A DNA stretch of 64,000 nt from Candidatus Zixiibacteriota bacterium (GTDB lineage: Bacteria; Zixibacteria; MSB-5A5; SM23-73-2), in contig JAUWYR010000002.1 of the NCBI GenBank assembly GCA_030615745.1, positions 1 through 64,000 on the forward strand. Reading direction: 5' to 3'. A program made the position numbers and the translations under genes. The first letter of the stretch is position 1, and each line of letters starts with the position of its first letter. The notes under the pieces were generated by a model that had not been told where the DNA came from, did no database searches, and was given only the letters and a program-made list of their open reading frames with translations. Below are positions 22,300 to 39,115 of this stretch, piece by piece.

Positions 22300-24732
22300 C
22301 TATTCTTCTTCAGCTTTCATAACCCTGGCGATATCTACCACCTTATCCCCTTCATCTAAATTTATCAGCCTCACACCCTGAGTCGCTCTTCCAATCGCCT
22401 TAATCTGTTTAGCAGGTTGTCTGATTATCTTTCCCTTCTGAGTTATAATCAAAAGCTCATCCTCATCCTCAACCATCTTGATAGCAACAGCTTTTCCATT
22501 CCTTTTGGTTGTCCTTATGTTTATTATCCCCTTTCCCCCACGATTGGTTATTCTATAATCAGAGACATCGGTTCTTTTACCATAGCCGTTCTCAGTGATA
22601 ACTAAGATTTTTGTATCTTTTTTAATGATCTCCATTCCAATAACAAAGTCCTTATCCGAAAGATTTATTCCTCTAACTCCATAAGCATTTCTTCCGGTGG
22701 GTCTGATTTTGATCTCAGGAAATCTTATAGCAACCCCACCTGTTGTGGCTAAAAGTATATCATAGGTCCCATCAGTTATCGTCGCTTCAATCAACTGATC
22801 ATCTTCAGGAAGATTTATTGCGATGATCCCTCCCTTTCGAGGATTGGAAAAAGCATCCAGCTTTGTCTTTTTTATCACTCCTTTTTTAGTTGCCATCACA
22901 ACAAAACGCTTCTCATCGAATTTATCCACCGGAACAAAAGCAGTTATGTTCTCATCTTTACCTAAATCCAAAAGGTTAACTATAGGCTTCCCTTTTGTCA
23001 ATCTCCCCCCCTGTGGAATCTCATAAACCTTTAGCCAGTGGCATCTGCCTTTGGTAGTAAAGAAAAGTATATAATCGTGGGTGAAGGCGATAAACAGATG
23101 TTCAACAAAATCTGTTTCCTTGGTCCCAATCCCTATAACTCCCTTTCCACCTCTGGACTGACGCTTGTAAGCATCGACACCCAGCCTTTTTATATATCCC
23201 TGATGAGTGATGGTTATCACCATATCCTCCTCAGCTATCAAATCCTCTAAGGTGAACTCCTCCTCCTCCTCTTTTATCTCAGTCCTTCTCGGGTCCGCAT
23301 ATTTTTTCTTTAACTCTAAAAGCTCCTCTTTTATAAGTTGCATCCTTTTGACTTTGCTTTCGAGAATCCCTTTAAGTTGAGCAATCAATTTTATAAGCTC
23401 TAAGTATTCATCCTCAACTTTTTTCCGCTCAAGCCCGGTAAGCCTCGAAAGCCTCATATCCAATATCGCCTGCGCCTGGATCTCAGTTAATTCGTAATTT
23501 TTTATAAGTCCCTTTTTAGCATCATCGGGGGTTTTTGATCTTCTAATCAATTTTATTATCGCATCTAAATACTTTAAAGCGATTTTAAATCCCTCTAAGA
23601 TGTGTGCCCGCTTCTCCGCTCTTTTTAATTCGAATTTCATCCTTCTTGTGATAACCTCATGGCGATGTTCCAAAAAGTGCGAAAGAAGCTGTTTTAAGGT
23701 CAAAATCTTTGGCTGACCATCAACCAGAGCTAAAAGTATTACCCCGAATGTGCTCTGCATTTGAGTTTGCTTGAAGAGCTGATTCAAAATCACCTCAGCC
23801 GGAGCATCCCTTTTTAACTCAATCACAATCCTCATCCCTTCTCTGTCGGACTCATCCCTTAAATCAGAGATCCCTTCGATGACCTTATTGTTCACCAAAC
23901 TTGCAATCCTTTCCAGAAGGTTGGATTTGTTGATCTGAAAAGGTATCTCTGTTATTACAATCGATTCCTTTCCAGATTTTTGCTTCTCTGCTTTTGCCCT
24001 TGCTCTTAAGATGATCCTTCCTCTTCCTGTCCTGTAAGCTTCTGTTATCCCCGAAGTGCCGTAGATTATTCCTCCGGTTGGAAAGTCAGGACCAGGAATA
24101 AAGTTTAAAAGGTCCTCATCCTCTGTTTCAGGCTCCTCTATTATGTTTACCAATGCATCTACAACTTCACCCAGATTATGGGGGGGAATGTTTGTAGCCA
24201 TTCCAACAGCGATGCCGGAGGAACCATTGCATACCAAATTAGGGAACCTGGAGGGCAAAACCACTGGTTCTTCTCTGGTCTCATCGTAGTTGGGTTGAAA
24301 ATCCACTGTATCCTTTTCTAAGTCAGAAAGGATCTCCGTAGCAAAGAATGAAATCCGTGCCTCAGTGTATCTCATAGCTGCCGGAGCATCTCCATCGATG
24401 GACCCGAAGTTTCCCTGCCCATCCACCAAAGGATATCTTAAGTTGAAATCCTGAGCCATCCTCACTAAAGTGGGATAGACCACCTGTTCGCCATGGGGAT
24501 GATAATTACCCGAGGTATCTCCGCAGATTTTAGCACACTTCCTGGGAGGTCTCTCAGGGGATAAACCCAAATCGTTCATCGCCACTAAAATCCTTCGCAT
24601 CGATGGTTTTAAACCATCCCTCACGTCTGGCAATGCACGGGAAGTTATAACAGACATAGAGTAGTCTATATAGGAGGATTTCATCTCCTCCTCAATATAG
24701 ACCGGAACGACTTTCTCTTTGTTTCCTAACAT
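22300..24732 (-). CDS. gyrA: DNA gyrase subunit A
   Basis: [83 protein letters not shown]. Confidence 0.98.
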
Positions 24733-25142
24733 TATTGTTGACCTTCAAATACCTTTATCTTCTCCCCTAAGCTCTTCTGCAAAAAAGAGGCAATTTTTAT
24801 TACATTGATACCATCTTTTCTTTTGATTTCTACGTCAAAGCGACCTGTTGCCTCTTTGCTTTTATTAAATGCCCAATAAAGATTCCTCATAGATATTTTG
24901 GAAAATTTCCTTGCCTCTGCATAAAATTTCCAAAAAGAATTTAGTATTCCAATACTTGAACGAGGAAGTCTTTCTTTTTTTAGGATAAGCAAACCTCTTA
25001 AGGAAAGTTCCAACGAGTGATACCCTGTGTATACAGCTAAACGAGCCAAGCCCACTTTTAGGCTTTCTTTTGAACCGTACAAATACTCTTTTGAAAGTTT
25101 AAAAAAATCTAATGCTTTGTATTTTTTCTCTAAAAGACTCAT
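24732..25142 (-). CDS. HEPN-like domain protein
   Basis: RLAVYTGYHSLELSLRGLLILKKERLPRSSIGILNSFWKFYAEAR..NKSKEATGRFDVE resembles HEPN helices; stop codon overlaps gyrA ATG (TAATG). Confidence 0.65.
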   Translation of the reverse strand: MSLLEKKYKALDFFKLSKEYLYGSKESLKVGLARLAVYTGYHSLELSLRGLLILKKERLPRSSIGILNSFWKFYAEARKFSKISMRNLYWAFNKSKEATGRFDVEIKRKDGINVIKIASFLQKSLGEKIKVFEGQQ

Positions 25143-25214
25143 ACTTGAGATCTTAAACGTTGTGTTTACTCAACTTTTAATTTAAAAAATTGTTAAATTA
25201 TTTGTCCTAATAAA

Positions 25215-25280
25215 CATACGCATTTATATAGGAAGATTTCATCTCCTCCTCAATGTAGACTAGAAAGATTTTCTCTTTGT
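25215..25280 (-). pseudogene. degenerate copy of gyrA 5' end
   Basis: Translates [20 protein letters not shown] versus gyr[21 protein letters not shown]. Confidence 0.85.
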
Positions 25281-25360
25281 TTTAATACATCTTTAAATAT
25301 TAAAAAAAGGGGTTAGCTCTTTGTTTTGAGTTCTTCTGTAATCCTTTATGGAAAAGCTGA

Positions 25361-25400
25361 GCAAAAATAAATTTCTGCACTCCAAACCTATCGATCAAAA
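25361..25400. repeat. second copy of the gyrB 3'-end sequence (direct repeat of ~25947-25982)
   Basis: gcaaaaataaatttctgcactccaaacctat versus gcaaaaataaattttgcactccaaacctat. Confidence 0.8.
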
Positions 25401-25423
25401 TTTATTACATAGTTAAAATATCT

Positions 25424-25651
25424 TTAAAGTTTATTGAATTCCTCAATTGAGAGCTTAGCTTGATGAATCACAATGTTTCTCAAGGTTCCGATGGGGATAT
25501 CTTTTCCATGAAGAGGCACCACCGCAATTCTTCCAGTCTTGGGATTTTTAAGAGAAACATGACTTCCTCTTTGATGGGTCCTTCGAAATCCGGCCTTTTC
25601 CAATTTTTTTATCACTCTCCTTGCCGAAAGAGCTTTTAATCTCTCTGACAT
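25424..25651 (-). CDS. hicA: HicA-family toxin (mRNA interferase)
   Basis: LSARRVIKKLEKAGFRRTHQRGSHVSLKNPKTGRIAVVPLHGKDIPIGTLRNIV. Confidence 0.93.
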   Translation of the reverse strand: MSERLKALSARRVIKKLEKAGFRRTHQRGSHVSLKNPKTGRIAVVPLHGKDIPIGTLRNIVIHQAKLSIEEFNKL

Positions 25652-25914
25652 TAAGATCTCGACGAAGTTTTTTTCGTCACATATAATTTTATGTAAGTTC
25701 CTTCAGTCCGAAAAACAGGCTTAGGGATAGGCCTTTTCTCCTTTTCAAGTGTTTCTAAATAACATAAAGCTGCCTCTTTAACATTTGCTTCCGCTTCAGC
25801 AAATGTATCACCAAAAGATGAAACATTATTCAATTCAGGAATGGTGGCTATTACCCTGCCCGTTTTTTTGTCCACTTCGTATTCAATCCTGAAATTGTAC
25901 TCCTTTTTAGTCAT
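25651..25914 (-). CDS. hicB: HicB-family antitoxin
   Basis: YEVDKKTGRVIATIPELNNVSSFGDTFAEAEANVKEAALCYLETLEKEKRPIP; overlaps hicA. Confidence 0.92.
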   Translation of the reverse strand: MTKKEYNFRIEYEVDKKTGRVIATIPELNNVSSFGDTFAEAEANVKEAALCYLETLEKEKRPIPKPVFRTEGTYIKLYVTKKTSSRS

Positions 25915-25971
25915 GCTCTCCTTCCATATAAGTTATTTAAAAAAGGCAAAAATAAATTTTGCACTCCAAAC

Positions 25972-28253
<2,282 letters not shown>

Positions 28254-36300: not shown

Positions 36301-36310
36301 TTACAAGGAA

Positions 36311-36517
36311 ATGAAAGAGTCTTTTAGTTATATTTCCCAAAAAGATGATACCATAGTGGCTATAAGCACCCCATTAGGCACAGGTGGATTAGGTGTTGTC
36401 AGAATCAGCGGCAAAGAAACATTTTCTATAGCTGTGCTCCTGCTGGATGTTATCATCCAGCAGGACGGGAAGACGGATGATAACATCCGTCCAAGAGCAG
36501 AGATTTTGGGATATTAA
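36311..36517 (+). pseudogene. truncated 5' copy of mnmE interrupted by a palindromic repeat
   Basis: DTIVAISTPLGTGGLGVVRISGKETFSIA versus mnmE DTIAAISTPLGEGGLGVVRISGREAFVIA; then TCCTGCTGGATGttatCATCCAGCAGGA (36438-36465) and GACGGATGataaCATCCGTC (36472-36491). Confidence 0.9.
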
Positions 36518-36548: not shown

Positions 36549-37541
36549 ATGTCGAATCGAGTTTTAACTAAAAGTAAAATCTCTATAACACCAAAAGTTA
36601 AGTATGAGGAATACCTTCTTATAAATGGGAAAAGACAAGTTTTAGTTGAACGGGTAAATGATGGCTCGATAATTAAACGTTTTGACAAGACTCCTTTACC
36701 TGAAAAAGCTACTGATGTTATCTGCCCGCATTTTCTTGAGTTGAAATGGGCTTACGGTTGTCCTTTTGATTGTAGCTGGTGCTATCTTAAAGGGACCTTC
36801 AGATTTAGACCAGAAGGGATAAAACCAGCATTTAAGCCTCTGGAGAAAATTAAATCACATGTTGAGGCTTTTCTCGAACAAGTGGATACCCCGGAGATAC
36901 TTAATACCGGTGAGATTGCAGATAGCCTGATGAAAGAGGATAAAATCTCTCCTTTCTCTAAGTTTATCATCTCAATGTTTCAAAGACAAAATATTCATAA
37001 GGTTCTTTTTGTAACCAAATCAACTAATATAAAAAATCTTTTAGAGATATCCTCTAAGGGACAGGTTATAATAAGTTTTAGCCTGAATGCAATACCTGCT
37101 GCGGAGAAGTGGGAAAAGAAAGCACCCCCTGTTAGCAAAAGGTTGGAGGCGGCAAGTAAACTTTACCAGGCAGGTTATGAAGTAAGAATAAGGATCGATC
37201 CCATTGTGCCGATTGATAATTGGCAGAGGTATTATTTACAACTCATAGATAAGATATTCTCAAAATTCAAACCATCACGAATTACCTTAGGAACTTTACG
37301 AGGACTTCAAAGCACACTTAATGGTACAAAAGACCATTCTTGGGTACATTTTCTAAAGGAAAAATCTAACTGGGGAAAGAAGATTGACTTTACTACAAGA
37401 TACAACTTGTATAAAACCATAATGAAACACCTTAGGGAAAACTTGAGCTACTCCGAGGTTGCCTTATGCAAGGAAACAATGGCAATGTGGGGAAAATTAG
37501 GAATGGACTGGCAAAACATAAGGTGTAATTGTATCTGGTAG
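36549..37541 (+). CDS. radical SAM protein, spore-photoproduct-lyase-like
   Basis: ELKWAYGCPFDCSWCYLKGTFRFRPEG; CxxxCxxC motif and SPL/COG1533-like layout. Confidence 0.8.
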   Translation: MSNRVLTKSKISITPKVKYEEYLLINGKRQVLVERVNDGSIIKRFDKTPLPEKATDVICPHFLELKWAYGCPFDCSWCYLKGTFRFRPEGIKPAFKPLEKIKSHVEAFLEQVDTPEILNTGEIADSLMKEDKISPFSKFIISMFQRQNIHKVLFVTKSTNIKNLLEISSKGQVIISFSLNAIPAAEKWEKKAPPVSKRLEAASKLYQAGYEVRIRIDPIVPIDNWQRYYLQLIDKIFSKFKPSRITLGTLRGLQSTLNGTKDHSWVHFLKEKSNWGKKIDFTTRYNLYKTIMKHLRENLSYSEVALCKETMAMWGKLGMDWQNIRCNCIW

Positions 37542-37696: not shown

Positions 37697-39115
37697 ATGC
37701 AAGAGAACCAAATGAAAAAAAATTTCAAGTCGACATCTCTGGATGAAGATACTATTGCTGCTATCTCCACACCACTGGGAGAAGGTGGATTAGGTGTTGT
37801 CAGGATCAGCGGCAGGGAGGCTTTCGTGATAGCTGATAAGATATTCAGGGGTAAAGTTAAGCCCTCAAAGGCACCCTCCCACACAGTTCACTATGGTAAG
37901 GTGGTTGTTCTGAATACAGATGAGGAGATAGATGAGGTTTTGTTAACTGTTATGCATCCGCCTAAAACTTATACTAAAGAACCTTTGGTGGAGATAAGCT
38001 CTCATGGAAGTTCTTTTATCTTGTATAAGATTTTAAATCAGGCAAAAGAGGCTGGAGCAAGATTGGCCAATCCGGGAGAGTTCACCTTAAGAGCCTTTTT
38101 AAATGGGAGAATTGACTTAGCTCAGGCTGAGGCAGTGGCTGAGTTGATAAAAGCTAAGACTGATTTGAGTCTGAAAGTTGCTCTTTCACATCTCAAAGGA
38201 GAGCTATCTTTTAAACTCAATTCATTTCGAGAAAATCTGATTGAGATCTTAGCTAACTTAGAAGTTCAGATCGACTTTCCTGAGGAGGATTTAGAGCCAA
38301 AGGATAAAGAATATATCTTAAAAGAGTTAGATAATATCAAAGGTGGTATCGATAAGTTATTGGATACATACGATGAAGGCAAGATTCTAAAGGATGGATT
38401 AAGGGTAGTGATAGTTGGAAAGCCGAATGTTGGTAAGTCCAGCCTTTTGAATGCTTTATTAAAGGAGGAAAGGGCAATTGTAACACCAGTTCCAGGAACA
38501 ACAAGGGATGTGATATCAGAAGATGCTAATTTCAAAGGTGTTCCAGTAAGACTTTTTGATACAGCTGGTTTTAGAGTATCTAAAGATACAATTGAGGCAG
38601 AAGGGATAAAAAGGACAAAGCTTGAGATAGGAAAAGCAGATATGATCTTGTGGGTAGTGGATGCTTCCAGTGGTCTTGATAAAGATGAGCTCGAATTGGA
38701 AAAGCAGATCGAAAGTTTCAAGCATGTGGTGGTATTAAATAAGATAGATTTAGGCTCTGAGGATTCGATTTCAAAGCTTTTGGATAGATTTGAAAATAAA
38801 ATCTACAAAGAAATATGCGCGATAAAAAGAGAGGGAATTGAAGATTTGATTGACGCAGTTGCAAAAGAAGCCATAACTTTTGATAGGGATGCAAATGGCG
38901 ATGTGGTCTTATCCAATTTTCGTCACAAAGATGCTTTGCTAAGGTCAAAGGAGGGCTTATCAAAGGCAAAAAAATCTTTAACTGAAAAGTTAAGCCTTGA
39001 GTTTATTGCCTTAGATTTAAGAATAGCCTTAGATGCCATAGGTGAGATAATAGGAAAAACAGTAACAGAGGATATTTTGAATAAGATATTCTCAGATTTC
39101 TGCGTTGGGAAATAG
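37697..39115 (+). CDS. mnmE: tRNA modification GTPase MnmE
   Basis: DTIAAISTPLGEGGLGVVRISG..VVIVGKPNVGKSSLLNALLKEERAIVTPVPGTTRD..C-terminal FSDFCVGK. Confidence 0.97.
   Translation: MQENQMKKNFKSTSLDEDTIAAISTPLGEGGLGVVRISGREAFVIADKIFRGKVKPSKAPSHTVHYGKVVVLNTDEEIDEVLLTVMHPPKTYTKEPLVEISSHGSSFILYKILNQAKEAGARLANPGEFTLRAFLNGRIDLAQAEAVAELIKAKTDLSLKVALSHLKGELSFKLNSFRENLIEILANLEVQIDFPEEDLEPKDKEYILKELDNIKGGIDKLLDTYDEGKILKDGLRVVIVGKPNVGKSSLLNALLKEERAIVTPVPGTTRDVISEDANFKGVPVRLFDTAGFRVSKDTIEAEGIKRTKLEIGKADMILWVVDASSGLDKDELELEKQIESFKHVVVLNKIDLGSEDSISKLLDRFENKIYKEICAIKREGIEDLIDAVAKEAITFDRDANGDVVLSNFRHKDALLRSKEGLSKAKKSLTEKLSLEFIALDLRIALDAIGEIIGKTVTEDILNKIFSDFCVGK

Follow-up and report, generated by a model that had tools for sequence, protein, structure and literature searches.

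Insertion with duplicated gene ends at the gyrB-gyrA junction of a Candidatus Zixiibacteriota genome

The junction between gyrB and gyrA in a Candidatus Zixiibacteriota bacterium (assembly GCA_030615745.1, here G000) contains additional genes and decayed copies of the gyrB and gyrA ends. The junction lies within a window of 64,000 nucleotides (contig JAUWYR010000002.1, positions 1 to 64,000), and all of its features are on the minus strand. Intact gyrB (27915-25972, 647 amino acids) is followed by hicB, hicA, a non-coding stretch, an open reading frame (ORF) of 136 amino acids and intact gyrA (24732-22300, 810 amino acids), whose orthologues in the same taxonomic order are 75-86% identical. 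The hicA toxin gene (25424-25651, 75 amino acids) matches PF07927 (E = 1.3e-18). The hicB-like antitoxin gene (25651-25914, 87 amino acids) matches PF15919 just below the cut-off (E = 1e-5; 26.2 bits, cut-off 27) and the HicB-like PHROG 497 (E = 4e-12). A HicA domain with a neighbouring HicB identifies the pair as HicBA. Like known HicBA systems, hicA scores above the Pfam cut-off and hicB is directly upstream with a one-base overlap; unlike them, the pair interrupts the gyrB-gyrA junction and is accompanied by a duplicate of the gyrB end. A sigma-70 promoter scan around the locus gave results at chance level.

The functional copy of the duplicated gyrA 5' end occupies 24667-24732, with the start codon at 24732-24730. 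Its core (24667-24724, gyrA codons 4-22) is repeated directly at 25225-25282, where 52 of the 58 positions are identical (90%), at a spacing of 558 bp and with a blastn E of about 1e-14. In a comparison of gyrA with its own upstream DNA the best direct score was 86, whereas the best inverted-control score was 25 (83 gyrA loci). An earlier sequence-only reading had placed a decayed gyrA duplicate at 25215-25280. The duplicate exists, with its position a few bases off: the gyrA-frame translation covers 25222-25281 and the whole stub 25215-25290 (ATG TAT TAA AAC AAA GAG ...). The stub is dead, since its ATG (25290-25288) runs straight into TAT TAA. The hicBA pair and a gyrB 3' duplicate form a further part of the locus that is absent from the sequence-only reading. 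The decayed gyrB 3' stub with its downstream bases (25361-25414) is 83% identical to the functional copy (25946-25998); the repeat spans the last nine codons, including the stop, and about 26 bases beyond, and the stub reads NYVINFDR before the stop codon compared with KYVKNLDV in gyrB. The hicBA pair lies between the intact gyrB end and this decayed copy. The old gyrB end, spacer and gyrA start are thus found at about 25215-25414, stranded between two cargo inserts. The segment at 25291-25360, to judge from its position between both stubs, would be the original spacer.

The nearest relative, candidate division Zixibacteria SM23_73_2 (G001; 86% GyrA identity), provides the comparison that the sequence-only reading had called for. 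In its junction about 250 bp of spacer separate gyrB from gyrA, and the ORF, hicBA and both stubs are absent. The 136-amino-acid ORF is also absent from the f2-family genomes with sequence spanning the junction. Among the sites that differ between stub, gyrA and G001, three unite the stub with gyrA to the exclusion of G001 and one unites it with G001 to the exclusion of gyrA, which favours duplication within the G000 lineage. The relic spacer cannot be aligned to the G001 spacer, so the empty site at gyrB-gyrA rests on absence of the cargo rather than on base-by-base colinearity. G005, which belongs to a different family of the order, also has a short stub of the gyrA 5' end upstream of gyrA (28 of 31 nucleotides). 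Its gyrB-gyrA junction holds a distantly related hicBA pair (L068, 527-1031; 30% identity in HicA), followed by a membrane-protein gene and the gyrA stub. The different cargo and separate stub in G005 indicate the junction has been invaded more than once. A candidate gyrA stub in L012 was rejected; its score of 25 was no better than the inverted controls.

The ORF in front of gyrA (24732-25142) resembles HEPN proteins only below threshold. In a search with the PF05168 profile it scored 19.7 bits, short of the cut-off of 22, over residues 14-71 only; the similarity noted in the sequence-only reading is weak, and membership of the family does not follow from it. The suggestion that the ORF encodes a toxin or RNase finds no support from profile, motif, neighbour or fold, and was rejected. 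The RX4-6H motif is absent from the ORF, which has a single histidine (R34-x7-H42), and there is no nucleotidyltransferase ORF between the gyrA stub and gyrA that could be the partner in an MNT-HEPN pair. The ORF had no PADLOC, NCBIfam or PHROGs match, and hhalign against four genomic HEPNs gave a probability of 23%. The fold model is helical with a pLDDT of 53, and its structural matches are meaningless. No homologue of the ORF was found in the genome contigs, plasmids or 131 class relatives, the weakest matches having E values of 0.02-0.04 and containing stops. The ORF is probably what is left of an MNT-HEPN cassette after loss of the partner gene. Its stop codon overlaps the gyrA start as TAATG (24734-24730; TAA 24734-24732, ATG 24732-24730, with one A common to both), as had been claimed. 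The final codons of the ORF include GAAGG, nine bases ahead of the gyrA ATG, and the ribosome-binding site used by gyrA therefore probably lies within the ORF. Translation of gyrA may be coupled to the ORF through TAATG and GAAGG, and the ORF may be retained because gyrA is now read through it by way of that site.

The same arrangement is found at other genes of this genome, and is clearest at accC (biotin carboxylase). An MNT-HEPN pair lies at the 5' end of accC between duplicates that are identical at 29 of 29 nucleotides. The accC leader of G001 aligns over 143 bp with the stub-side DNA of G000 and continues directly into accC, while the DNA preceding the working G000 accC matches G001 only over the repeat. 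The insertion point is the start of accC, and the initial 28 bases of the gene remain on the far side of the module. Stub, MNT, HEPN and gene follow one another at accC in the same way as stub, HEPN-like ORF and gene at gyrA. The cargo stop and target ATG do not overlap at accC, so the arrangement does not require a stop/start overlap. A methylase-MntA-HepT module at the 3' end of a ptsN-like (PTS_EIIA_2) gene is accompanied by a 37-bp duplicate, and a ThaI-family restriction endonuclease with its methylase (L192, G000:C17, 3359-5113) is flanked by 57-bp direct repeats which begin a small reading frame (MIKRLARKDIYPN). A further case lies on the plus strand of the same window, where a radical-SAM/SPL-like gene (36549-37541; PF20903, E = 4e-20) is located between yidC and mnmE. 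A decayed mnmE 5' stub (36309-36434) precedes this gene, and intact mnmE (37697-39115) follows it with the duplicated segment at 37710-37835. An mnmE orthologue was not found in G001. The duplicates measure 58-77 bp at gyrA, 54 bp at gyrB, about 126 bp at mnmE, 29 bp at accC, 37 bp at the ptsN-like gene and 57 bp at the restriction-modification system.

To survey the genome, 1.32 Mb of the 74-contig assembly was read in stretches, and a unique duplicate of a gene end within 5 kb was counted. Twenty direct and no inverted duplicates were found, compared with 0.58 expected per strand from the rest of the sample; some of these are partial gene copies in tandem that carry no cargo (C38, C35, C8). 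The cargo-bearing cases, together with some from additional searches, include the ThaI, methylase-MntA-HepT and accC modules. Controls of 200 kb yielded a single REP-like repeat in E. coli and none in G026, and are too short to prove the lineage special. An initial count under looser criteria gave 31 cassette-type repeats over 644 kb and was reduced, many of the repeats being palindromic, low-complexity or dockerin-like, and the C16 DUF3795 and ExbD-like pairs were set aside as resembling tandem paralogues. Twelve HEPN, HicA and DNA-methylase loci from a family search were also compared with 500 random ORFs at a flank repeat score of at least 49. Direct repeats flanked 5 of the 12 modules and 27 of the 500 ORFs (p = 4e-4, which serves as a guide only).

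Insertion of cargo, duplication of the gene end and the derived state of the locus are established. The claim of the sequence-only reading that cargo entered at the gyrA start with its 5' end duplicated, leaving the gene intact, is borne out by the sister genome, by the scar at other genes and by the clean empty site at accC. With a probability of roughly 0.7, a recurring process in this genome inserts small cassettes at conserved gene ends and duplicates the gene end, and has acted twice at gyrB-gyrA. Two separate insertions would have split the junction after the G000 lineage parted from SM23_73_2. One would have placed hicBA behind gyrB, with a duplication of about 54 bp at the gyrB 3' end, and the other the HEPN-like gene before gyrA, with a duplication of about 58-77 bp at the gyrA 5' end. 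At each insertion one copy of the gene end would stay with the working gene and the other become a dead stub. The cassettes loaded at conserved gene ends would often be toxin-antitoxin or restriction modules. The duplication of the gene end may be what makes such insertions tolerable even in essential genes.

The mechanism we favour, tentatively and at somewhat less than even odds, is one-sided capture. Incoming DNA that carries cargo beside a copy of the same gene end would pair with the chromosome there, and its other end would join illegitimately a few dozen bases away. The duplicates in gyrA, mnmE and accC start at or beside the ATG, which favours capture since homology to a cargo-bearing donor would start at the ATG. 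The presence of a related MNT-HEPN pair (65%/48% identity) in front of accC in G009, a member of another family, argues in the same direction. ComEC is present in G000 and no Ku gene was found there, and both were counted for capture; Ku-type end joining was rejected on the latter ground. A dedicated insertion with long target duplication is a real possibility with the odds somewhat against it. The modules, or an enzyme that acts on them, would nick the target at points about 30-130 bp apart, and insertion and gap filling would follow as in transposition, except that the duplication is long and variable. Such a process agrees with the presence of the scar at restriction-modification and toxin-antitoxin modules in this genome, with the literature on restriction-modification systems, and with the identity of the accC duplicates, as for a recent local copy. 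However, the small inserts lack a transposase or integrase, no common insert ends were seen, an ordinary radical-SAM gene is also scarred, and duplicates that start at the ATG would be a coincidence.

It is improbable that the gyrB-gyrA region was duplicated in tandem and then deleted down to remnants of the gene ends, and that the cargo arrived afterwards by a different route. The cargo-free tandem partial duplicates of this genome show that such copies arise, but several precise deletions would be required at each of many loci, the sister shows a simple empty site at accC, and the gyrB and gyrA stubs each border a different cargo. The gyrA stub in G005 might suggest an ancestral arrangement in which ORF and stub regulate gyrA. 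This is very improbable: it is refuted at the genus level by G001, the f2-family genomes spanning the junction also lack the ORF, the ORF has no homologue in the 131 relatives, and the G005 cargo differs. A chance repeat or assembly artefact, conceivable in an assembly of 74 contigs, can hardly be credited, given that repeat scores lie far above the inverted controls and that the copies share reading frames and are 10-25% diverged, unlike assembly errors.

Several points weigh against a recurring insertion process or its favoured mechanism. No donor signature was found: the gyrA and accC 5' regions are not foreign-looking and show no divergence step. The identical accC duplicates also fit a purely local duplication, and in G009 the module at accC has no gene-end stub beside it. 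At gyrB the repeat is short, rich in A and T and in part non-coding, and the relic spacer fails to align with that of G001. Palindromic or multicopy elements account for many of the other direct repeats around genes. In the module test the modules are few and their families were chosen after the pattern had been seen; the C64 hicBA, one of the five flanked modules, is bordered by a palindromic element, was rejected as a gene-end scar and may not count.

Nobusato 2000 and Furuta 2010 are said to have described insertion with long target duplication for restriction-modification systems. The loci of G000 resemble that type of insertion in having small transposase-free modules, with variable direct target copies of tens to about 100 bp, and one module is itself a Type II restriction-modification system (ThaI). 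Both variable flanking copies and an empty site are present here, the latter base by base at accC and by absence of cargo and stubs from G001 at gyrB-gyrA. Unlike the restriction-modification cases, the G000 modules are mostly of the toxin-antitoxin type, with an ordinary gene among them, and conserved gene ends are targeted, with 5' copies running from the start codon, in Zixibacteria. Insertion of restriction-modification systems with long target duplication has been reviewed (PMC3874152). Homology-facilitated illegitimate recombination (PMC3240628) combines one homologous and one illegitimate junction and would likewise duplicate a gene end; in contrast, no donor junction was identified here. 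Like MntA-HepT-type modules, the accC and ptsN-like cases carry MNT and HEPN genes and the gyrA ORF weakly matches PF05168, whereas the gyrA ORF lacks an MNT partner and RX4-6H.

Transposase-free movement of chromosomal toxin-antitoxin modules is poorly understood. At gyrA, gyrB, accC and the ptsN-like gene the scar is seen directly as a gene end duplicated on either side of a module, with one clean empty site in a sister, which extends the restriction-modification pattern to toxin-antitoxin modules. Gene-end stubs that flank short cassettes provide a search rule applicable to any genome collection. A broader proposal, which we consider unlikely, is that an uncharacterised process spreads toxin-antitoxin and restriction modules in this lineage by targeting the starts or ends of essential genes and duplicating 30-130 bp of the gene end, tying the module to an indispensable gene.

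Three observations touch on neighbouring subjects. The DNA preceding accC in G003 (L265) resembles, on inspection by eye, the end of a REP-associated tyrosine transposase, and the carboxyltransferase-accC junction may, from that sequence, be another often-invaded site. Many short palindromic repeats, such as GGATGTTATCATCC (L006, L012 and window positions 36430-36500), occur in intergenic DNA of the order and are possibly mobile. A hisS-like gene in L232 (G000:C69, 192-2180) has HEPN and MNT genes in direct overlap with its 3' end.
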